A stretch of 64,000 bases of DNA. Source: Undaria pinnatifida (taxonomy: Eukaryota; Sar; Phaeophyceae; Laminariales; Alariaceae). The stretch is taken from positions 12,504,205-12,568,204 of the forward strand of contig JABAKD010000005.1 in assembly GCA_012845835.1 (NCBI GenBank), written 5' to 3'. The notes below the pieces were generated by a model that was not told where the DNA came from, searched no databases, and saw nothing but the letters and a program-made list of their open reading frames with translations. Made by a program: the position numbers and the translations under genes. Shown here piece by piece: positions 32,981-63,739 of this stretch. How positions within the stretch are numbered: the first letter of the stretch is position 1; each line of letters starts with the position of its first letter.

Positions 32981-33856
32981 ATGCGCCTCCTGCTGTTGTT
33001 TAACGTGGTCACATCGTGGATCACAACAAGAGGGGCGACCCGTGTCGCAAGAGGAGGTTTTGTGCACGGTAGAACCGGAAGGTCGATGAGAGGGGGGGGG
33101 GTACTGATGGCAGAGCCACAGAGAGAGCGAGAAGGCGGGGACTCTTTCCTTGCCACCGCCGATAGCATTGAGCAGCAATACCGCACGGCCTTCTGCGCGT
33201 TGAAATATACACGCAGCAGTTACAAATCAGCCATTTATATGGATAGCGGGTTGTCGTTCGATGCTTCTTCGGAAGTGTATGGGGGGGAGGACTTGGCCCT
33301 TGCGGTTGGAAGTGGCAAGCTCAAAGGTGGGAGAGGCAGTGTTTTTGGGGAGGGGGTTAAGAGGGCAGGGTCACACAGAGAGCGAGACGGCGGGAATTCT
33401 GTCCCTGCCACGACCGACAGCATCAGCCAGCAACACCGCACAGCCTTCTGCGCGTTGAGACATGCACGCAGCAGTTACAAATCAGCCATTTATATGGATA
33501 GCGGGTTGTCATTCGATGCCTCTTCGGCAGTGTATGGGGGGGAGGACTTGGCCCTTGCGGTCGGAAGTGGCAAGGATAGGGGTGGGAGCAGTAGTGTGTT
33601 TGGGGGAGGGGTTAAGAGGGTAGGGCCACAGAGAGAGCGAGACGGCGGGGACTCTTTCCTTGCCACGGCCGATAGCATTAAGCAGCAATACCGCACAGCC
33701 TTCTGCGCGTTGAAACATACACGCAGCAGTTACAAACTAGCCATTTATATGGATAGCGGGTTGTTGTTCGATGCTTCTTCGGAAGTGTATGGGGGGAAGG
33801 ACTTGGCCCTTGCGGCTGGAGGGGGCAGGGCCATGAAAACAGGGAGGTACATCTAG
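32981..33856 (+). CDS. Tandem-repeat ORF, 291 aa, unknown function
   Basis: Open from ATG to TAG with three repeats of exactly 255 bp (85 codons), marked by 'RSSYKSAIYMDSGLSFDASS', then 'VYGGEDLALAVGSGK'. The N-terminus 'MRLLLLFNVVTSWITT' is hydrophobic and could be a signal peptide. Each repeat keeps one Cys ('TAFCAL'). The unit length is a multiple of three and all three repeats are free of stops. Differences between units include both silent and replacement changes. That favours a real repetitive protein but does not exclude a satellite with a fortuitous frame. No family is recognised. An AG acceptor at 32972 would allow it to be an internal exon. Confidence 0.4.
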   Translation: MRLLLLFNVVTSWITTRGATRVARGGFVHGRTGRSMRGGGVLMAEPQREREGGDSFLATADSIEQQYRTAFCALKYTRSSYKSAIYMDSGLSFDASSEVYGGEDLALAVGSGKLKGGRGSVFGEGVKRAGSHRERDGGNSVPATTDSISQQHRTAFCALRHARSSYKSAIYMDSGLSFDASSAVYGGEDLALAVGSGKDRGGSSSVFGGGVKRVGPQRERDGGDSFLATADSIKQQYRTAFCALKHTRSSYKLAIYMDSGLLFDASSEVYGGKDLALAAGGGRAMKTGRYI

Positions 33857-36840: not shown

Positions 36841-36887
36841 AAAAGAATATTCGAGAACATTGTGACAGGAGGAGAGTTATGGACAGT

Positions 36888-37166
36888 TGTAAGCTTATTG
36901 GGCGAGGACACAGAGTGCCCCCTGCACGTCTGCCAATTGAGCAGGTCCTCGGAGAGTGCTCACTTGCTTAGCCTTCGTGAAGACGTATTAATAGCTTTAT
37001 TCGATTCCACCAGCAGAGCCCCGGATGGCTTCTGAGATCGGAGGCACGTGCTTCCGATCTATTTCCTAACTTTCCCGAATATAAAACGCCAACCTTATCA
37101 TACGACACCCGTCCAAATGCTTTCAAGTTTGGATAATTATAGATCTTTCGAGGCCGTATCTCAACA
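36888..37166 (-). repeat. 3' LTR of copy A
   Basis: On the minus strand it runs from TGTTGAGATACGGCC to CCAATAAGCTTACA. Contains an interrupted version of the 26-bp palindrome around GGCACGTGCC seen intact in copy B. Confidence 0.85.
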
Positions 37167-38200
37167 CTAGCCCACCCTGATGAGCTGCATGTGCAGAAAT
37201 ATGAGAGATTCGGGGAAACTCCGGTTCTACGAACTGCACCATGAGTCGAAGATGCGTCTCCTCGAAACCCACTCCCACACCTCTAACGGTCTGGCTATGG
37301 AGCCAGGAACACGCGAAGAAAAACAGTTGAAGGAAACGCAGACCCTACAACAAGGCAAACGTTACCCATCGAAAACCTGCCGCGTGTCGCCGGTGTGGCG
37401 GGGGGGGGCAGAAAAGGCTCTAGAACCTGCCGCACACCGCCGGTGTGGCGGGGTAGGGCAGGAAAGGCTCTACCGCTAACCAATCACAGAAGCGGTATTG
37501 TGGCGAGGTGAGCCCTCGTCAATACGGAGGGGAACACAGGCGCTAACACAAGGGAGAAGTCATGCGAAAAAGCTCCCGCGGGCCATCGGCATGGCGGGGG
37601 GCTAGACGAGGAAACGACAAATACCCGGGATGGAAGGTGGCAACACCTACAGCCCCGCGAGGGGGGGAAGTGTTTAGTCGAAAAAAACAAAGTAGAACAA
37701 ACACAACACACGAAAGATAAAAGATGACACGGAAACGACAAATGCCCGGGATGAAAGGTGGCAACACCTGCAGCCCCGCGAGGGGGGGGGGTGTTTAGTC
37801 GAAAAAACAAAGTAGAACAAATACAACACGCAAAAGATAATAGATGACACACAGAACCGTACATAGCCCTGTACCACGTTACGCGCGAACAGGGTACCCT
37901 GGTCGCCCCCCGGCTCTGGACTGAGGAGGGCGTCGGCAGGGCGAAATTGAACAATGACGAAAAAGCAACAGCCCTGCGCCTCAGATAGCGGCGTTTTACC
38001 CGATCCTTGGCCCGGCACTGAGCAGGGGGCTCGGCAGGACAAAAAGAATGAAACAAAATGAAAAGAACCACCCCAAAACCCGACAAAGACTCTCAGGACA
38101 CTCCGAACAAGCCAAAGACAAAGACTCAAGCCTCACAACCCAAAAAAATGAAGAACTATCGAGGAGCGGTGGCGGCTTGAAAGTCAACTGGCTACGGCAA
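37167..38200 (-). other. 3' non-coding region of copy A
   Basis: Contains tandem duplications: 'cctgccgc.c.ccgccggtgt' at 37377 and 37429, and a 120-bp unit 'cccgggatg.aaggtggcaac' at 37622 and 37746. Copy B has the matching region at 62205-63468. Confidence 0.75.
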
Positions 38201-38628: not shown

Positions 38629-40082
38629 TACATGTTTCGTCAAGTGCTTTTTGGTGTAAAGAGGAGAAGTTTTTTGTCACACATGACTGGTGACTCGCTG
38701 CGCGAAGTGAAATGTTTGTGTGTTGTGTTGTTTTTTTTTGTTGTTGTCCCGCATCGTGATGTAGCAGGATCGAACAGCAGAGGCGCAAACGTTCAGGCGC
38801 ATGCACCACCAGCGCTGGGTTGGCAGGCCAGCCGAAGGGTGCTTGTATGCTACTACTAGCAGTGTAGAGTGTGTTGGTGTTCGTGTGTGTGTCCCAAAAT
38901 AAATGCACCCACGTGGTGGTTGTTTGCGTGCGAGGGTGTAGTTCGTCACGCCGTTTGATTTGAATCGCAGCCGTTTGAATTTTATGGTTTTGTAAGGACG
39001 AGGAGGGTTTTTTGCGAAGGGATTTTTTTGTCCGCAGCCCAGGGCACAACGAAGTGAAATATTTGTGTGTTGTGTTGTTGTTTTTTGTTGTCCCGCATCG
39101 TGATGTAGCAGGATCGAACAGCAGAGGCGCAAACGTTCAAGCGCATGCACCACCAGCGCTGGGTTGGCAGGCCAGCCGAAGGGTGCTTGTATGCTACTAC
39201 TAGCAGTGTAGAGTGTGTTGGTGTTCGTGTGTGTGTCCCAAAATGCACCCACGTGGTGGTTGTTTGCGTGCGAGGGTGTAGTTCGTCACGCCGTTTGATT
39301 TGAATCGCAGCCGTTTGAATTTTATGGTTTTGCAAGGACGAGGAGGGTTTTTTGGGAAGGGATTTTTTTGTCCGCAGCCCAGGGCACAACGAAGTGAAAT
39401 GTTTGTGTGTTGTGTTGTTTATTTTTTGTTGTCCCGCATCGTGATGTAGCAGGATCGAACAGCAGAGGCGCAAACGTTCAAGCGCATGCACCACCAGCGC
39501 TGGGTTGGCAGGCCAGCCGAAGGGTGGTTGTATGCTACTACTAGCAGTGTAGAGTGTGTTGGTGTTCGTGTGTGTGTCCCAAAATGCACCACCAGCGCTG
39601 GGTTGGCAGGCCAGCCGAAGGGTGCTTGTATGCTACTACTAGCAGTGTAGAGTGTGTTCGTGTTCGTGTGCGTGTCCCAAAATGCACCACCAGCACTGGG
39701 TTGGCAGGGCAGCCGAACGGTGCTTGGATGCTGATAGCAGTGTCGGGGGGGGGCGACGCGCCCCCCCCCGAACCCCCCCCCCCGGGCCCGACACAGTGTG
39801 CGTTGGAAGGACCCTCACCAGCAGCCGAAGGGTGCTTGTATGCTACTACTAGCAGTGTAGAGTGTGTTGGTGTTCGTGTGTGTGTCCCAAAATGCACCAC
39901 CAGCACTGGGTTGGCAGGGCAGCCGAACGGTGCTTGGATGCTAGTAGCAGTGTCGGGGGGGGGCGACGCGCCCCCCCCCGAACCCCCCCCCCCCGGGCCC
40001 GACACAGTGTGCGTTGGAAGGACCCTCACCAGTGTGCGTTCGAAAAAGTACATGGAAAAACTATAGTATGTATTTTTATTAA
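38629..40082. repeat. Satellite-like insertion inside copy A
   Basis: Copy B shows the empty site ('catcttgcgttattgggcc'). The insert holds about 2.4 units of 341-349 bp (from 38702, 39051 and 39392), then four units of about 100 bp ('ccaccagcgctgggttggca'), then two G/C-rich blocks ('gacgcgccccccccc', at 39752 and 39963). The ends are 'tacatg..' and '..tttttattaa'. No coding content. Confidence 0.8.
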
Positions 40083-40930: not shown

Positions 40931-41995
40931 GTCCCAATCGTCTTGTCGCTCGTTGACGACCATAGCCAGCATTTGTGCCATAGTGTGGTTAAACCGCTCA
41001 ACCCCCCCGTTACCGTTGGGATGATAGGAACTTGTAGCAAGCTTGTGCACACCCAACAGCTGATATACAGCTTGTGAAAGCTTGGAGTCGAACTGCAGGT
41101 CGTTGTCCGAGAGTATGGTGCGCGGGCACCCCCACAAAGAAATGTGTTGGTTCACCAGGACATTGACTGTGCCCTCCGCGGTGAACTCAGTGGCACTGAC
41201 GGGGAACATGTCGGCCCGACGACTTACGCGATCGGTAAACAGGAGGATGTAGGTGTTGCCTCGTGGTGTGACCGGGAGGGGGCCAAAGTAGTCAACACTG
41301 ACGGCGATACCTGGGCCTTCCGGTAGAGGCATTGAGATGATTGGCCGGCGGACAGTCAGCCATGGGGTTTTCCGCGCGTGGCACTTGAAGCAGTGGCGAA
41401 GCCACCACCGGGTGCACACATTCACGCCAATCCACCAATAAAACGGCTCCAGCATGCGCAACGTGCGCGTGGTGCCAAGGTGACAAAAAGTCATCGAGTG
41501 ACAAGCTTGCATGACCCAAGGGCGCATGAGCAGGGGGACGTAGATGCGAACCGGCTCGTCGTTTAGCAAGCAAGCAGCTCGCCCCACACAGTTGGGTTTG
41601 TCAGACCTTGCTGGCGGCAGTGTCGGATTACGGACGAGTAGGACGATGTCGTCGTCGGTTGTATGCAGTCGAGTCGACCCTCGCCAGCTTCTGGATGTCT
41701 GAGAGGGAGGGACGCTTGTGCAAGGGGTAGCACGCCAAAACGTCGGCGGCACGGCCGACGGTCGGCCGATAGAGATGTAGCGTATCGTGACATCGCACGT
41801 CGGCTCAGCGTGCTGTTCTCGCTTCCCATCGGCATGCGAATAACGCGCGACGGAATCAGCGGACCTCAATTCAGCAGCGTCGTCGAGGGCATCCGACCTT
41901 GTAGGTGCAGTTGGCGTGTCACCAGGACAAGGCGTGAGCCGTAGGAGAGGAGTTTCCATAGGTTCTGCGTGGTCGCAGTCGGACGGAAGTGGCAC
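40775..41995 (-). pseudogene. Copy A integrase (zinc finger and catalytic core)
   Basis: 406-codon open frame. The zinc-binding HHCC region ('HSMTFCHLGTTRTLRML', then 'HCFKCHARK') precedes the RNase-H-fold core with D in 'VSVDYFGPLP' (codon 41291-41293), D in 'ILSDN' (41105-41107) and E in 'GGVERFN' (40997-40999). The spacing is DD35E. Catalytic residues are intact, but the frame breaks after 'AYTTIPSA', where copies without the shift would continue into 'SAATGLAPTEV'. Integrase inserts retroelement cDNA into host DNA. Confidence 0.92.
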
Positions 41996-42819: not shown

Positions 42820-43140
42820 GGCAAGCGGGCCAGACAAATCGGCCATGCTGTTGGCGCTGCCTCTACGGTACTCGAGTGTGCAATCGAACGCGGTGACGAA
42901 CTCCTTCTACCGCTGGACTCGTGCATTGAGGATCCCCGCTTTGCCAATGCTCTCCTGTGTCTTGTGGCCAGAGGATATGCGGAACTTTGTTCCCCACAGT
43001 ACCCTCGGAGGCATTTAGGAGCCCAAACATTGCTGCCGGTCCCCAAATCTAAAGGAGTCCAGTGCCTCTCCGAGTCGAGCGTTGCTCGACTGATGTACGC
43101 GATTTTCATAGTGAACGAAACGTCGTCCAGCGTCACAGTA
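42820..43140 (-). pseudogene. Copy A reverse transcriptase and RNase H remnant
   Basis: The start 'TLDDV' corresponds to the RT catalytic '.LDD' box. One base is missing just after it relative to copy B. RNase H survives only as 'EFVTAFDCTLEYRRGSANSM'. The RT fingers and palm before LDD, and the protease, are absent. Confidence 0.75.
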
Positions 43141-43384
43141 CCCCCGACGAAACAGGGGCCGTGTTCTTACAGCGTAAGGTCAGGGCCGACGCTAGAAGCT
43201 ATCTCGACAACTTCACGGCTTTTCATTGGCCAACGCGCCCGAGAAATAGGTCGGAAACTCCGAAGGGGGAGCTTTGCGAGCGCTGGCCGCTGTAAACGGC
43301 CCCGCCGCGGCTCGGACGAGATTTCTTGCTTCTTGCAGTCGCAGTGCAGGTGCGGAACCGACTAGAGGAGGCCGGGTGCGCCGA

Positions 43385-43875
43385 CCCGGTCTCACTGTCG
43401 CGAATAGCTTCGCGAACGGCAGAAAGTGCCTCACCGAGCTATTTTTTCCTTTCCACTGGCATGGGTTGTTGACCCTAGGATCATCCGCCCGGAGACCAAT
43501 GCCCCACACTGGGTCCAGAGGGCTGGATTTAGCCAGAAGCTTGTTGTCAGAGCTCAATTGGTGATTTGTTTATGGCTAGATTCTGCGTGAATTTGGCGTA
43601 AGTGTCAGATAACACGGCGTTTTGCTCCTCCCTGTCCCCAACACCGGCGTCAAAGTTGCGCACGCCTCGACCGATGCGTTTGCTTGTGCTTGGACTAGGC
43701 GACGAAACGATGAGCCCCACTGCTCGATGGTCTTGGAAAAGCCTGGCCTTTTCGGTCATCATGTATTGCTTCGCGCAAGAATATAGCACGTCGTCCACGG
43801 CAAACGACGAAGGGGACAAAGGTGAAAAATAGGATGGGGGCTGCCAGAATACCACCACTTTGTCTGTGGAGTATT
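43385..43875 (-). pseudogene. Copy A NADAR domain
   Basis: Minus-strand frame 43547-44230 carries 'TDKVVVFWQPPSYF', 'FAVDDVLYSCAKQYMMTEKA', 'RLFQD', 'SKRIGRGVRNFD' and 'AKFTQNL'. After a small frameshift come 'SPLDPVWGIGLRADDP' and 'CQWKGKN', and after another shift 'GEALSAVREAI'. This is the full order of NADAR (YbiA-type) motifs. Known NADAR proteins act on ADP-ribose-linked nucleotides, including removal of ADP-ribose from guanine bases. Here the usual Glu of 'AEQYMM' is Lys in both copies. The two shifts are shared with copy B, so the domain is probably dead in these copies. Confidence 0.9.
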
Positions 43876-43879
43876 CGAG

Positions 43880-44861
43880 AGAAGGGTCAAAAGCCGAGTT
43901 GGAATTTGGGCCTGCAATGTCCCCGTCCGGGAACACCAGGCTTCGGGAGCACGACGCGAATCCGAACCCGTGATTTCTTGCCTCGGGTCTTTCTTCGCTC
44001 GTTGGCGGAAAAACGCAAGAATCCGCTCTAATTGCGCCCGAAAAATGGCAAAAACCGACAGTGCCAACCCGTTGGTAGCCTCGTTGGACACTTGTGGGTC
44101 TGCAATGTCCCCTTCTGGGAACACCAGTCCTCGGCTCTTTGGGTCTGCAGTGTCCCTTTGCGGGAACACCGAGCCTTGGGATCAAGATGCGAGTCCGACC
44201 CCGCGGTTTCTTGCCTTGGGTCCGCCTCACTCGCTCGTGGAAACTCGTAAGAAGCCGCCCTCACTGCACCCGAAAAAGAGTCCAACACCGACGGTGCCAA
44301 CCCGTCGGTAGCCTTGTTGGGCATTTGGGGCTGCAATGTCCCCCTCTGAGAACACCAGTCCTCGGCACTTTGGGCCTGTTGTGTCCCCCTCAGGAACACC
44401 AGGCCTCGGGAACACGACGCGAGTCCGAACCCACGGTTTCTCTCGTCATGGTTTCTTCGCTCTTCGGCGTATACTCGCAAGAGAACTGCTCTAACTGCGC
44501 ACGAAGGGACAGGGGCTCTGCGCTGTTTCTGCTTGACGAGAGGCGCGATTCTGCCGTTACGGGAATAGCGTCCAGCTGATCAGGCTGGAGGCCGTGACGT
44601 CACCACTGGCCCGTCGCGCAGTGTCGGATCTTCTTCCTGCGCCTCTGGGGCAGACGTCGCCCGAAACACGTAGGTTAGCGTGTTAAAAGACGAAGCAGGG
44701 TCCGTAGACCCTGTGGGCGTCTTCTGGAGCGGAGCTCGAGCAGGTGGCAATAATGTTTTTACCCGAGGAGGCTCTTTTCTGTTATGGCTCTTGAAGAAGG
44801 GAGATGCTTTTTCTTTTTTTCCTGCCGACGACGCCATTTGTAAGGTTATAGGTGGGGACAC
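43880..44861 (-). pseudogene. Copy A gag-like region with 232-bp repeats
   Basis: Starts 'MASSAGKKEKASPFFKSHNR' next to the PBS. Then two and a third units of about 232 bp, each carrying 'E..GSDSRRAPEAWCSR.GT'-type sequence, run into the NADAR domain. The frame shifts between units. No capsid major-homology region or zinc knuckle was seen. Confidence 0.65.
44820..44836 (-). other. Primer-binding site of copy A
   Basis: Minus strand TGGCGTCGTCGGCAGGA, two bases after the LTR end ..CTTACA. It would pair with a tRNA ending ..GACGACGCCA. Shared with the TRIMs. Confidence 0.8.
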
Positions 44862-45107
44862 AGAGTGCCCCCTGCAGGTCTGCCAATTAAGCAGGTTCTT
44901 GGCGAGTACTCACTTTCTTTGCCTTCGTAGAGACGTCGCTTTATTCGATTCCACCAGAGCCCCGGATGGCTTCTGAGATCGGAAGCACGTGCCTCCGATC
45001 TATTAGCTAACTTTCCCGAATATAAATCGCCAACGTTATCGTACGAAACCCATCCAAATGGTCTCAAATTCGGATAATTACAGGCCTGTTGAGGCCGTAG
45101 CTTACCA
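44839..45107 (-). repeat. 5' LTR of copy A
   Basis: About 85-90% like the 3' LTR by eye. The outer end reads TGGTAAGCTACGGCC where the other LTRs begin TGTTRAGATACGGCC. The divergence suggests an old insertion. Confidence 0.85.
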
Positions 45108-45209
45108 CCGTCCCGAAACCGTTCGTTTTTTTTGTGGTAAGCTTCTCGAGCATAATTGCAGCACTAATGCAGACGTCGCACAGGATTCTAGAGCTCAGAA
45201 GCTCTGTAG

Positions 45210-46869: not shown

Positions 46870-47180
46870 CCAATAAGGCGGTCTGAGCAACGCAGTGTCC
46901 CGATATAAGGCGATCTGACTAAGGCAGTATCCCGATCTAAGGCGGTCTGACTAAGGCGGTATCCCGATATAAAGCGGTCTGACTAAGGCGGTATCCCGAT
47001 ATAAGGCGGTCTGACTAAGGCGGTGTCCCGATATAATGCGGTCTGACTAAGGCGGTATCCCGATATAAGGCGGTCTGACTAAGGCGGTATCCCGATATAA
47101 GGCGGTCTGACTAAGGCGGTATCCCGATATAAGGTGGTCTGACTAAGGCGGTATCCCGATATAAGGCGGTCATATATCGC
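46870..47180. repeat. 32-bp satellite x about 9
   Basis: Unit 'ggcggtctgactaaggcggt' + 'atcccgatataa'. The unit is itself two related halves. Same family as 2420-2480. Confidence 0.95.
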
Positions 47181-47430: not shown

Positions 47431-47955
47431 CTTTTTCTTTTTCTTTTTCTTCTTTTTTTTTTTTTTTTTTTCTTTTCTCTTCTTTTCTTTTCTTTTCTTT
47501 TCTTTTCTTTTCTTTTCTTTTCTTTTCTTTTCTTTTCTTTTCTTTTCTTTTCTTTTCTTTTCTTTTCTTTTCTTTTCTTTTCTTTTCTTTTCTTTTCTTT
47601 TCTTTTCTTTTCTTTTCTTTTCTTTTCTTTTCTTTTCTTTTCTTTTCTTTTCTTTTCTTTTCTTTTCTTTTCTTTTCTTTTCTTTTCTTTTCTTTTCTTT
47701 TCTTTTCTTTTCTTTTCTTTTCTTTTCTTTTCTTTTCTTTTCTTTTCTTTTCTTTTCTTTTCTTTTCTTTTCTTTCTTTTCTTTTCTTTTCTTTTCTTTT
47801 CTTTTCTTTTCTTTTCTTTTCTTTTCTTTTCTTTTCTTTTCTTTTCTTTTCTTTTCTTTTCTTTTCTTTTCTTTTCTTTTCTTTTCTTTTCTTTTCTTTT
47901 CTTTTCTTTTCTTTTCTTTTCTTTTCTTTTCTTTTCTTTTCTTTTCTTTTCTTCC
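47431..47955. repeat. (TTTTC)n microsatellite, about 525 bp
   Basis: About 100 pentamer units with one 4-base phase slip near 47772. The Phe/Leu/Ser and Lys/Glu/Arg frames on the two strands are artefacts. Confidence 0.98.
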
Positions 47956-56942: not shown

Positions 56943-57149
56943 ATCCGGTGTTTGCTCGCGAAAGCAGCGGGCACTCTGTTTTTTTTTCCCATCAAGGAGG
57001 AGTCGACAAGATTAGCTACCTCGTCTCCCTTTTCCAAGAGGTAAAATGGAAAAGAGCCTCCTCGGGTAAAAACATTATTGCCACCTGCTCGAGCTCCGCT
57101 CCAGAAGACGCCCACAGGGTCTACGGACCCTGCTTCGTCTTGTAACACG

Positions 57150-57960
57150 GTAACCCACGTGTTTCAGGCGACGTCTGCCCCAGAGGCGCAGGAAGAAGAT
57201 CCGACACTGCGCGACGGGCCAGTGGTGACGTCACGGCCTCCAGCCTGATCAGCTGGACGCTATTCCCGTAACAGCAGAATCGCGCCTCTCGTCAAGCAGA
57301 AACAGCGCAGAGCCCCTGTCCCTTCGGGCGCAGTTAGAGCAGTTCTCTTGCGAGTATACGCCGAAGAGCGAAGAGACCATGACGAGAGAAACCGTGGGTT
57401 CGGACTCGCGTCGTGCTCCCGAGGCCTGGTGTTCCTGAGGGGGACACTACAGGCCCAAAGTGCCGAGGACTGTTTTTCCCAAAGGGGGACATTGCAGCCC
57501 CAAATGCCCAACGAGGCTACCGACGGGTTGGCACCGTCGGTGTTGGACTCTTTTTCGGGTGCAGTGAGGGCGGCTTCTTACGAGTTTCCACGAGCGAGTG
57601 AGGAGGACCCAAGGCGAGAAACCGCGGGGTCGGACTCGCATCTTGCTCCCGAGGCCTGGTGTTCCCGCAAAGGGACACTGCAGACCCAAAGAGCCGAGGA
57701 CTGGTGTTCCCAGAAGGGGAAATTGCAGACCCACAAGTGTCCAACGAGGCTACCAACGGGTTGGCACCGTCAGTTTTTGCCATTTTTCGGGCGCAATTAG
57801 AGTGGATTCTTGCGTTTTTCCGCCAACGAGCGAAGAAAGACCCGAAGCGAGAAATCACGGGTTCGGATTCGCGTCGTGCTCCCGAAGCCTGGTGTTCCCG
57901 GACGGGGACATTGCAGGCCCAAATTCCAACTCGGCTTTTGACCCTTCTCTCGAATACTCC
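57150..57960 (+). pseudogene. Copy B gag-like region with 232-bp repeats
   Basis: Repeat marks 'cgtgctcccgaggcctggtg' type recur at about 57410, 57642 and 57875. The frame changes between units as in copy A. Confidence 0.65.
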
Positions 57961-58450
57961 ACAGACAAAGTGGTGGTATTCTGGCAGCCCCCATCCTATT
58001 TTTCACCGTGGTCCCATTCGTCGTTTGCCGTGGACGACGTGCCATATTTTTGCGCAAAGCAATACATGATGACCGAAAAGGCCAGGCTTTTCCAAGACCA
58101 TCGAGCAGTGGGGCTCATCATGTCGTCGCCTAGTCCAAGCACAAGCAAACGCATCGGTGCGCAACTTTGACTCCGGTATTGGGGACAGGGAGGAGCAAAA
58201 CGCCGTGTTATCTGACACTTACGCCAAATTCACGCAGAATCTAGCCATAAAGAAATCACCAATTGAGCTCTGACAACAAGCTTCTGGCTAAATCCAGCCC
58301 TCTGGACCCAGTGTGGGGCATTGGTCTCCGGGCGGATGATCCCAGGGCCAACAACTCATGCCAGTGGAGAGGAAAAAATAGCTCGGTGAGGCACTTTCTG
58401 CCGTTCGCGAAGCTATTCGCGACAGTGAGACCGGGTCGGCGCACCCGGCC
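57961..58450 (+). pseudogene. Copy B NADAR domain
   Basis: Motifs 'TDKVVVFWQPPSYF', 'FAVDDVPYFCAKQYMMTEKA', 'RLFQDHRAVGLIMSSPSP', then 'SPLDPVWGIGLRADDP', 'CQWRGKN' and 'LGEALSAVREAIRDS'. Besides the two frameshifts shared with copy A, an extra 8-base loss after 'SKRIG' removes the 'RGV' part of 'GRGVRNFD'. The Lys thought to attack ADP-ribose in this family ('MMTEKARLF') is retained, while the preceding conserved Glu is Lys. Confidence 0.9.
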
Positions 58451-58679
58451 TCCTCTAGTCGGTTCCGCACCTCCTCTGCGACTGCAAGAAGCAAGAAATC
58501 TCGTCCGAGCCGCGGCGGGGCCGCTTACAGCGGCCAGCGCTCGCAAAGCTCCCCCCTCGGAGTTTCCGACCTATTTCTCGGGCGCGTTGGCCAACTAATA
58601 CCCGTGAAGTTTTGGAGATAGCTTCTGGCGTCGGCCCTGACCTTACGCTGTCAGAACACGGCCCCTGTTTCGTCGGGGG

Positions 58680-59710: not shown

Positions 59711-61018
59711 ATGAAGGATTCGGGCCCGGCGGGACCCCTCGGCCATCTTCCAGACGAGGTACAACCCCGCCGCGAGTCCCACGGCCGCGGCCGGCTCCGC
59801 CCGCCGCCGCGACCCTTGCTCTTGCCGATTCGCCGGTCCGCACGGCGCCACTTCCGTCCGACTGCGACCACGCAGAGCCTATGGAAACTCCTCTCCTACG
59901 GCTCATGCCTTGTCCTGGTGACACGCCGACTGCACCTACAAGGCCGGATGCCCTCGACGACTCTGCTGAATCGCGGTTCGCTGATTCCGTCCCACGTTAT
60001 TCGCATGCCGATTGGAAGCGAAAGCAGTACGCTGAGCCGACGTGCCATGCCACGATACGTTACATCTCTATCGGCCGACCGTCGGCCCTGCCGCCCGACG
60101 TTTTGGCGTGCTACCCCACGCACAAGCGTCCCTCCCTCTCAGACATCCAGAAGCTGGCGAAGGTCGACTCGACTGCATACAACCGACGACGACATCGTCC
60201 TACTCGTCCGTAATCCGACACTGCCGCCAACCAGGTCTGATAAACCCAACTGTGTGGGGCGAGCTGCTTGCTTGCTAAACGGCGAGCCAGTTCGCATCAA
60301 CGTCCCCCTGCTCATGCACCCTTGGATCATGCAAGCTCGTCACTCGATGACCTTTTGTCACCTTGGCACCACGCGCACGTTGCGCATGCTGGAGCCGTTT
60401 TATTGGTGGATTGGCGTGAATGTGTGCACCCGGTGGTGGCTTCGCCACTGCTTGAAGTGCCACGCGCGGAAAACCCCATGGCTGACTGTCCGCCGGCCAA
60501 TCATCTCAATGCCTCTACCGGAAGGCCCAGGTATCGCCGTCAGTGTTGACTACTTTGGCCCCCTCCCGGTCACACCACGAGGCAACACCTACATCCTGCT
60601 GTTCACCGATCGCTTAAGTCGTCGGGCCGACCTGTTCCCCGTCAGTTACACTGAGTTCACCGCGGAGGGCACAGCCAATGTCCTGGTGAACCAACACATC
60701 TCTTTGTGGGGGTGCCCGCGCACCATACTCTCGGACAACGGACTGCAGTTCGACTCCAAGCTTTCACAAGCTGTATATCAGCTGTTGGGTGTGCACAAGC
60801 TTGCTACAAGTTCCTATCATCCCAACGGTAACGGGGGGGTTGAGCGGTTTAACCACACTATGACCCCAATGCTGGCTATGGTCGTCAACGAGCGACAAGA
60901 CGATTGGGACTTGCATCAGCCCCACGTAGAATTGGCCTATACAACAATTCCGTCAGCGCGGCGACGGGTCTGGCGCCCACCGAGGTCCACATGGGCAGAC
61001 CCCCGCGGCTCCCCCTGA
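59711..61018 (+). pseudogene. Copy B integrase (zinc finger and catalytic core)
   Basis: 435-codon frame. HHCC finger 'HSMTFCHLGTTRTLRMLEPF' and 'HCLKCHARK' (60340-60470). Catalytic D (60548-60550), D (60734-60736) and E (60842-60844) give DD35E. The first 170 codons are Arg/Ser-rich and probably out of frame with the true protein. It breaks at the same point as copy A after 'AYTTIPSA', so the shift is inherited. Confidence 0.92.
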
Positions 61019-61535: not shown

Positions 61536-61800
61536 GTGCTCAACAATTTTTCCAAGAAGTCCCCGCCGTACCACGTCATTCAAGACGACGTTTCGACCCC
61601 CTTCGAACGGCTGGAGGTGGAGCAGATCACCGGTCATCAGTCGGTACCGGGGCGAGGTGGCGTCATCGCGGTGCTATACAAGAGGCATTGGGCGGGACTC
61701 TCTGAATCTTCCTAGAAGCGGGAAATGGACCTCGATCTCTCCCGCTCCCACATCTTGCGTTATTGGGCCAGAACCCCGGGCCAGCACCGCCAAACCAACC
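61536..61800 (+). pseudogene. Copy B chromodomain
   Basis: 'LNNFSKKSPPYHVIQDD', 'FERLEVEQITGHQS', 'GGVIAVLYKRHWAGLSESS', TAG, then 'MDLDLSRSHILRYWAR'. The TAG sits where chromodomains have the Trp of 'sWE'. This places the element among the chromoviruses. Confidence 0.8.
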
Positions 61801-62204
61801 GCCTCTACCGCCGAATGCGGATCGGGGCGGCAAAGCGCGAGTTCTCCCTCAACAACGAGGAACGTTTCCTAGTGCCGGGCTACGCTTGTGTTCCCCGCGC
61901 CGATTGGCCCCGTCGCTACCACGAAACGGTACTTCCTGAGGGAGCCCACTTTTGATACAAGGGAGACGATGGGTTGTGGTGGCTTGGAAAAATCAGCGCG
62001 AGCACTACCGAGGACAAGGTATATCTGGTCCGCTATCTGGACGACCCGGGACCGATTAAACTTCCTCTTCCCCCGGCGCGCTACACGACTTCGACGGGAG
62101 CCGTACGAGGTTCTTGGTGCCTGCAAGTTCACATCGCCAGTGCGTTTTCTCGGGGAATCCAACGTAACGTAGACGAATCTCGAGGCGCTGCCGTGGCCAG
62201 TTGA
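61801..62204 (+). pseudogene. Copy B C-terminal module after the chromodomain
   Basis: 'YACVPRADWPRRYHETVLPE', 'GAHF', TGA, then 'YKGDDGLWWLGKISASTTED', 'VYLVRYLDDPGPIKLPLP' and 'TSTGAVRGSWCLQVH'. The second half has the look of a small beta-barrel (Tudor/chromo-like) module. It ends with a stop at 62204. Confidence 0.75.
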
Positions 62205-63468
62205 CTTTCAAGCCGCCACCGCTCCTCGATAGTTCTTCATTTTTTTTTTAGTTATGAGTTTTGCGTCTTCGTCTTTGGCTTGTTCGTAGTGTCCTGAGAG
62301 TCTTTGTCGGGTTTTGGGGTGGTTCTTTTCATTTTTTTTCATTCTTTTTGTCCTGCCGAGCCCCCTGCTCAGTGCCGGGCCATGCTTTGGGTAAAACGCC
62401 GCTATCTGAGGCGCAGGGCTGTAGCGTTTTCGTCGTTGTTCAATTTCGCCCTGCCGACGCCCTCCTCAGCCCAGAGCCGGGGCGACCAGGGTACCCTGTT
62501 CGAGCGTAACGTGGTACAGGGCTATGTGCGGGTCTGTGTGTCGTTTCTAATCTTTTGCGTGTTGTATTTGTTCTACTTTGTTTTTTCGACTATTACGGAG
62601 ATCCATTGTTGACAGGGGTAAATGTCTCATCATCATGTTGAAAAACAAATCACCGGAAAATTCTCATAATTTTCGCAATATCTCGGCCAGAACATCATAT
62701 ATATATATACATATTTTGCCCCGTGACCGTAAGGCCTATGCACACAATCCAAGCTATCGTGTACCGGTATCGACGAAGAATTTACAGAGTTATGACCCTT
62801 TAGGCATTTACCCCTGTTAACAATGGATCTCCGTAATAAACACTTCCCCCCCTCGCGGGGCTGCAGGTGTTGCCACCTTCCATCACGGGTATTTGTCGTT
62901 TCCGTGTCGTCTTTTATCTTTTGTGTGTTGTATTTGTTCTACTTTGTTTTTTCGACTGAACCCTTCCCCCTCTCGCGGGGCTGTAGGTGCGGCCACCTTC
63001 CATCCCGTGTATTTGTCGTTTCCTCGTCTAACCCCCCGCCTTGCCGATGGCCCGCGGGAGGTTTTTCGCATGACTTCTCCCTTGTGTTAGTGCCTCTGTT
63101 CCCCTCCGTATCGACGAGGGCTCGCCTCGCCACAATGCCGTTTCTGTGTTTGGTTTGACGTAAAGCCTTTTCCTGCCCCCCCCCGCCACACCGGCGGTAT
63201 GCGGCAGGTTCTAGAGCCTTTGCTGCCCGCCCTCCGCCACACCGGCGGCACGCGGCAGGTTTTTGATGGGTGAATTTTTCCTTGTTGTAGGGTCTGCGTT
63301 TCCTTCAACTGTTTTTCTTCACGTGTTCCTGGCTCCATAGCCAGACCGTTAGAGGTGTGGGAGTGGGTTTTGAGGAGCCGCATCTTCGACTCATGGTCTA
63401 GTTCGTAGAACCGGAGTTTCCCCGAATCTCCCATATTTCTGCATATGCGGCTCGTCAGGGTGGGCTAG
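62205..63468 (+). other. 3' non-coding region of copy B
   Basis: Matches copy A 37167-38200 with the same tandem duplications ('ctcgcggggctg.aggtg' at 62854 and 62973). Interrupted by a MITE at 62593. The sequence 'cagggtgggctag' before the LTR is the likely polypurine tract. Confidence 0.75.
62593..62836 (+). mobile_element. Tc1/mariner-type MITE in copy B
   Basis: 244 bp. TIRs start TTACGGAGATCCATTGTT and continue to 'ACAGGGGTAAATG', about 32 bp with one mismatch. Flanked by TA on both sides. Copy A has the empty site 'ttcgacTAaacac'. No coding capacity. Confidence 0.92.
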
Positions 63469-63739
63469 TGTTAAGATACGGCCCCGAAATGCCTGTAATT
63501 ATCCGAATTGAGATAATTTGGATGGGTTTCGTATGATAAGGTTGGCGTTTTGTATTGGGGATAGTCAGAAAATAGATCGGAGGCACGTGCCTCCGATCTC
63601 AGAAGCCATCCGGGGCTCTGGTGGAATCGAATAAAGCTACGGCTTCACGAAGGCTAAGAAAGTGAGTACTCTCCGAGGACCTACTCAATTGGCAAACGTG
63701 CAGGGGACACTCTGTCCCCCCCCGCCCAATACCCTTACA
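63469..63739 (+). repeat. 3' LTR of copy B
   Basis: From TGTTAAGATACGGCC to CCCAATACCCTTACA, 271 bp. Contains a perfect 26-bp palindrome at 63574-63599 centred on GGCACGTGCC, possibly part of the R-region/poly-A signal hairpin. Confidence 0.88.

Follow-up and report, generated by a model that had tools for sequence, protein, structure and literature searches.

The window analysed here, a 64,000-nucleotide stretch of the genome of the kelp Undaria pinnatifida (contig JABAKD010000005.1, positions 12,504,205 to 12,568,204 of the forward strand; guanine-cytosine content 50.06%), holds two retroelement copies, A and B, that are inverted relative to each other, are 95% identical across 4.75 kb, and both carry a NADAR domain. 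An earlier note on this DNA, made by a model from the letters alone, had proposed that domain, and searching both loci with Pfam profile PF08719 bears the proposal out, with frame pieces that match in profile order and best E values of 1e-16 for copy A and 5.6e-10 for copy B. In copy A (minus strand), 43550-44260 covers profile positions 2-108 (62.0 bits) and 43216-43569 covers positions 112-149 (E 6.6e-6, 26.9 bits), while copy B (plus strand) matches through 57568-58167 (positions 2-76, 40.2 bits), 58073-58270 (positions 75-109, E 0.073) and 58251-58595 (positions 112-149, E 6.1e-6). One piece per copy exceeds the gathering cut-off of 35.1 bits, and the remaining pieces carry the profile on below it. 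The first outcome that the note named as a refutation, absence of a significant match to NADAR, is thereby excluded. The piece LGEALSAVREAI, which the note had also assigned to NADAR, gives no PF08719 match alone in either copy but does align with the C-terminal helix that NADAR has in relatives.

57979..58420, plus strand: copy B NADAR domain, carrying E43K, W89G and E125K and, compared with an intact relative in the genome, three indels that shift the frame (Pfam pieces, active-site codons, alignment)
43400..43849, minus strand: copy A NADAR domain, carrying E43K, W89G and E125K and two indels that shift the frame (Pfam pieces, active-site codons)

Both domains retain K50, D130 and W133, and R79 is retained in copy A and unreadable in copy B. 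On their sequence, the window NADARs are members of the superfamily by descent and are predicted not to be working enzymes. Compared with each other, they give a ratio of nonsynonymous to synonymous differences per site (pN/pS) of 0.88, approximately neutral and drawn from merely 12 counted differences; compared with the intact-type copy L130, the ratio is 0.30, so most of their divergence probably predates inactivation.

The other features of the two copies are as follows.

44835-45108, minus strand: 5' long terminal repeat (LTR) of copy A, 83.5% identical to 36884-37167 and 88-89% identical to the LTRs of two intact elements
43905-44441, minus strand: 233-bp tandem repeats of copy A (Tandem Repeats Finder; comparison with intact relatives)
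~43103-43109, minus strand: shared deletion junction in copy A, derived from the arms of the inverted-copy alignment
41018..41536, minus strand: integrase zinc-binding and core domains of copy A (PF17921, E 1e-8; PF00665, E 4.1e-5, below cut-off)
38629-40079, minus strand: 1.45-kb block of nested tandem repeats (340, 210 and 98 bases), located in the 3' part of copy A and without a counterpart in copy B (Tandem Repeats Finder, copy comparison)
36884-37167, minus strand: 3' LTR of copy A, from its pairing with the 5' LTR and comparison with intact-element LTRs
57323-57923, plus strand: 233-bp tandem repeats of copy B, a duplicated segment of open reading frame 2 (ORF2) just upstream of NADAR and not Gag (Tandem Repeats Finder; matches L111 1239-1468)
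58712-58718, plus strand: deletion junction, shared by both copies, at which ~2.09 kb with all of the reverse transcriptase (RT) and most of the protease is missing (blastn against L116, equivalent of 332-2418 absent)
60314..60823, plus strand: integrase zinc-binding and core domains of copy B (PF17921, E 9.1e-8; PF00665, E 7.4e-6, below cut-off)
61536..62204, plus strand: C-terminal region of copy B after integrase, chromodomain-like and then Agenet/PWWP-like, both weak (one window piece matches Agenet at E 0.0095)
63468-63739, plus strand: 3' LTR of copy B (LTR comparisons)

The LTR pair of copy A is just 83.5% identical and copy A is therefore old; for copy B no 5' LTR was found, and its homology to copy A begins at 57024. 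From its 5' LTR, copy A passes after ~20 bases straight into ORF2, at a point ~218 codons in by comparison with intact relatives, and shows no match to their leader, Gag or ORF2 start. The repeats that the earlier note took for gag-like are tandem duplications of a ~230-bp ORF2 segment that lies directly before NADAR in intact relatives, and copy A has no Gag match. NADAR does stand before pol as that note described, but the window pol is incomplete, with protease and RT deleted, integrase and a weak RNase H remnant retained, and no match to the chromodomain profile in the window pieces after integrase. Both window copies have hence lost catalytic residues, frame, protease and RT, and copy A its leader and Gag in addition. 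When a 361-base query spanning the deletion junction was used, all of the best 40 of 876 candidates aligned across it at 91-100% identity, both window copies included, which therefore points to an amplified family without an RT of its own.

The active ancestor that the note had supposed has a counterpart in a working source family that is intact in the same genome and recently inserted. Searching the Undaria pinnatifida assembly (511,146,479 bases) with PF08719 gave 1454 candidates, of which the best 150 were scored and all 150 exceeded the cut-off; NADARs of intact copies reached up to 176.7 bits, and the frame around NADAR is 2473 codons long at nine of the scored places (type 1) and 2371 codons long at five (type 2). 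In pieces of intact Pol, NADAR is the first recognisable domain and is followed by a weak protease (E 0.06-0.3), RT (RVT_1), RNase H, zinc-binding integrase, core integrase and, both weakly matched, a chromodomain and then an Agenet/PWWP-like region (PWWP, E 0.07-0.25). LTR pairs were detected in three of five intact copies tried, being 99.6%, 100% and 99.8% identical as aligned, with the lone mismatch of the first and third pair falling just outside the LTR and all three pairs identical inside. These three copies have TG..CA LTRs and 4-bp target duplications as seen by eye, one of them less surely at a site with TA-rich repetitive flanks; the other two gave a single 92-base match and none. 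Upstream of ORF2 lies ORF1, which has no Pfam match. In seven of eight type 1 loci (mutually near-identical) and in the single type 2 locus inspected, it ends at a TGA that is in frame and immediately precedes ORF2; the eighth type 1 locus (L108) has different upstream sequence.

L111 277-279, with equivalents in L109, L110 and L112-L115: TGA between ORF1 and NADAR-Pol, same frame, after '..RQPGTFRT(G)N'
L123 1484-1486, minus strand: TGA between ORF1 and NADAR-Pol, type 2 locus

That both types share the TGA although part of ORF1 is only ~40% identical between them makes stop-codon readthrough possible. The scored NADAR places are unevenly spread, with 26 of the 150 on contig C30, whose length would predict 8.1 (binomial p 1e-7), a count that covers well-kept copies only, these being the best 150 of 1454.

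NADAR is a regular part of this element. A search of the same genome with an RT piece gave 1752 candidates, and among the best 150, which were scored, the listed frame is 800 codons or longer at 69 places; NADAR is at its expected position in 58 of these 69. Inspection of ~4.4 kb upstream in the other 11 revealed one split NADAR and ten places without NADAR at E 1e-3, of which six (L196, L197, L200-L203) have an LTR running directly into Pol, mostly at differing points, and four (L194, L195, L199, L204) have a Pol that begins from a late start. None of the ten has a Gag match of at least 150 bases; they are deletion derivatives, and for want of that match no autonomous NADAR-free member was seen among the best 150 of the 1752 RT candidates. 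That a lone dead copy had captured the domain and intact members were without it, an outcome that the earlier note had allowed for, finds no support in these counts.

The active-site residues were taken from the available text of PMC11543638 and include the YbiA-type glutamate E125. Each residue is present in 56-60 of 60 genomic copies, which were fetched out of the 150 as mostly the best-scoring and stop-free ones, a choice that favours conservation. All seven residues are identical between types 1 and 2 at an overall NADAR identity of 46.5% (binomial p 0.005), and the domain has the NADAR fold. Selection was evaluated across 12 NADAR pairs as the ratio of nonsynonymous to synonymous substitution rates (dN/dS), which is 0.15 for L130 and L185 (dS 1.44), 0.19 for L130 and L182 (dS 0.42), and 0.19-0.56 for nine further pairs, where high values go with few changes or a decayed copy; the pair L130 and L157 is saturated. 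Decay in L185 or L182 would push the ratio up, not down. As far as sequence comparison can tell, the active site of NADAR is retained in the intact family and the domain is under constraint there.

Evaluating the class of the element further, we found in the intact-copy pieces the order protease, RT, RNase H, integrase (protease weak) of Ty3/Gypsy elements (Metaviridae). Chromoviruses likewise have this order, together with a chromodomain-like region after integrase, and the element had been called one. That name is not established, since the chromodomain match of the intact relatives (PF00385, E 0.021-0.064, 13.6-15.2 bits) lies below the Pfam cut-off of 25.1 bits and since the phylogeny in the available parts of PMC12477816 sets the chromodomain Gypsy lineages of Ectocarpus outside the chromoviruses, as unrelated to them. 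A sequence search of the C-terminal tail against solved structures gave a single chance-level match. The same source (Genome Biol 2025) makes outdated the statement that no well-described retrotransposon has NADAR, as it reports a NADAR-bearing arrangement in the Gypsy-12_Ec32 lineage of the brown alga Ectocarpus, and because of it NADAR in a Gypsy element is a kind already known. By that description, the position of NADAR agrees with the Undaria family, whose chromodomain is weak. The Undaria family differs in what is described here, namely two types, an in-frame TGA between ORF1 and ORF2, and dead derivatives without protease and RT, and its selection, active site and fold were examined. NADAR is also borne by Tx1 long interspersed nuclear elements of Crassostrea gigas, but these are a different class of retrotransposon, with the domain in ORF1 and so at another position (PMC12477816, in part).

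Among other NADARs, that of Phytophthora nicotianae var. parasitica (PDB 8bau) is 29% identical over the aligned part and is not described as a retrotransposon Pol; its adenine-stacking Y84 is F in Undaria type 1 by our reading of the alignment. The nearest named cellular sequences of our scan are the NADARs of Nannocystis and other Myxococcota (L028-L031), which are 53-58% identical and encoded in bacterial genomes. Among the matches listed from the open-licence PMC literature, no paper was found on NADAR in Undaria retrotransposons. To our knowledge, the kelp family and its dead derivatives are new, and so are the evidence on selection and active site, the in-frame TGA between ORF1 and ORF2, and a second, distantly related Gypsy protein that has NADAR.

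That second protein came from a search for long NADAR polyproteins, which with a decayed query scored none of 241 candidates, a blank owed to the query itself as an intact piece matched 14 of 997. Six of the proteins (P0122-P0126, P0128) have the post-NADAR segment of the element at 44-57% identity to type 1, and P0127 has this segment as well as RT (67% identical); all of P0122-P0128 belong to the same element family. P0129 combines NADAR (33-183) with protease, RT, RNase H and integrase, its RT being just 35% identical to the Undaria family, and it shows no match to the long linker of the family beyond a stretch before RT. P0130-P0133 were a separate observation, with NADAR listed alongside ADP-ribosylglycohydrolase (PF03747) in all four and in two also with PF10021.

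Phylogenetic analysis placed type 1 NADAR with Myxococcota with support of 97/89 (62 rows, for which 37 of the 80 bacterial loci and 19 of the 27 viral ones were submitted and two viral loci dropped for stops) and of 94/86 once the family relatives were added (51 rows, using 23 of the 80 bacterial loci and 9 of the 27 viral ones), and placed type 2 apart from type 1. A single clade of all element NADARs was rejected by the approximately unbiased (AU) test (p 0.005; 0.007 with four myxobacterial rows), a test weakened by having been named after the tree was seen; an earlier all-element value of p 0.0001 omitted the element rows P0122-P0126 and P0128 and is not counted. Because of this rejection, two or more separate origins are probable for the element NADARs. 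With P0129 left out, a clade of the family with Myxococcota was not rejected (p 0.28) and one of the family alone was borderline (p 0.049). A clade of type 2 with P0129 was not rejected either (p 0.20). Types 1 and 2 as one clade gave p 0.49 in one test and a borderline 0.052 in another, and since this is no clear rejection we do not claim a NADAR swap within the Undaria family. It is possible, and we offer it only tentatively, that NADAR was taken up independently, each time ahead of the protease in Pol, by two or more lineages of Gypsy elements (the Undaria type and the P0129 type), as a recurrent counter-measure against ADP-ribosylation of their RNA or complementary DNA (cDNA) by an undescribed host defence.

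On balance, we lean towards the reading that the window elements are old non-autonomous derivatives of a kelp Ty3/Gypsy family whose Pol contains a selected, catalytic NADAR, and that this NADAR would remove ADP-ribose from the nucleic acid of the element. As a part of Pol it would be packaged together with element RNA and cDNA, where it could hydrolyse ADP-ribose-guanine or a similar N-glycosidic ADP-ribose linkage and so clear a host- or stress-made modification that blocks reverse transcription or marks the nucleic acid; derivatives without RT would spread using proteins supplied in trans. We infer the final step, removal from element RNA or cDNA, from the Pol fusion, the conservation and the recurrence, and YbiA-type NADARs are described as hydrolysing guanine-linked ADP-ribose (PMC11543638, in part). 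Besides the choice of copies that favoured conservation, several observations weigh against this reading. L185 and L182 are open over NADAR, but the frames that hold them are only 515 and 397 codons long, respectively, and an active-site residue is lost in each (W133R in L185, E125K in L182); they are therefore not intact elements, and a single catalytic residue can evidently vanish without loss of the frame. Pooled NADAR pN/pS comes to 0.33 among the 35 copies of type 1 and to 0.50 among the 21 of type 2. Between the types, identity is 46.5-48% for NADAR and 40% for part of ORF1, as compared to 57% for protease to RNase H, 69% for the integrase region and ~80% for RT, so NADAR changes more quickly than the core enzymes do, as would be expected under conflict but also under weaker constraint. 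In the same genome DarT gave no match (one of 14 control genomes matched) and PARP one exon match (none of 14 control genomes matched), in searches limited by intron-split genes, and therefore no host enzyme that ADP-ribosylates nucleic acid was identified. Lastly, phage NADARs have been argued to act mainly on small soluble ADP-ribose compounds (PMC9503650, in part).

This last point leads to a reading in which the Pol NADAR is a metabolic or anti-signalling enzyme for small ADP-ribose compounds, such as tRNA-splicing phosphotransferase products, cyclic ADP-ribose signals or NAD-capped RNA. A conserved active site suits it equally, three exon matches to a Tpt1/KptA-type gene were found in the genome (a search with the same limit of intron-split genes), and soluble substrates are proposed for many viral NADARs in the available text of PMC9503650. 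We regard it as unlikely, since fusion to Pol puts NADAR beside RNA and cDNA instead of free in the cytosol, the nearest solved homologue hydrolyses guanine-linked ADP-ribose, and macromolecular targets are argued for NADAR in RNA-virus polyproteins (same source). NADAR might instead be a module that serves Pol through binding or structure, as a spacer that binds RNA or ADP-ribose and for which catalysis is irrelevant. The open frames of L182 (its E125K also seen in P0060) and L185 speak for this, as does a NADAR far more divergent between types than RT, but those two frames are short, the seven residues are identical between types that are otherwise so diverged, and nearly all genomic copies retain them, so that we hold such a module to be distinctly improbable.

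Two further readings deny NADAR a lasting role. Its open frames could merely reflect young copies of a lineage in which the domain is slowly decaying; many copies are indeed near-identical and the pooled pN/pS values mean that some variation is neutral decay, but the dN/dS of 0.15-0.19 against diverged copies (dS 0.42-1.44) and the retention of frame and active site in both types make this very unlikely. The window copies alone, with their frameshifted and catalytically dead domain, would suggest a passenger gene fragment of dead copies without a role in the active element. With intact, recent copies carrying NADAR in frame and under constraint, and with NADAR in most long RT frames and the exceptions either split or devoid of both NADAR and Gag, we give that suggestion almost no credence, and a passenger-only reading was rejected once the intact in-frame copies were found.

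Reversal of nucleic-acid ADP-ribosylation is known mainly in bacterial toxin-antitoxin systems. That a catalytic-looking NADAR is kept in the Pol of recently inserted retrotransposons of eukaryotes, and has more than one origin, would point to ADP-ribosylation as something that eukaryotic retroelement nucleic acid encounters; the element NADAR is a concrete enzyme for testing. The kelp family adds a second brown alga after Ectocarpus and shows dead derivatives that carry a NADAR relic.

Three other repeats were observed in the window. Some 104 consecutive TTTTC copies with 97% matches occupy 47433-47953, and nine 32-base repeats lie near this array at 46873-47171. At 33109-33815, a 255-base unit (85 codons) is repeated 2.8 times within an open frame of 296 codons.
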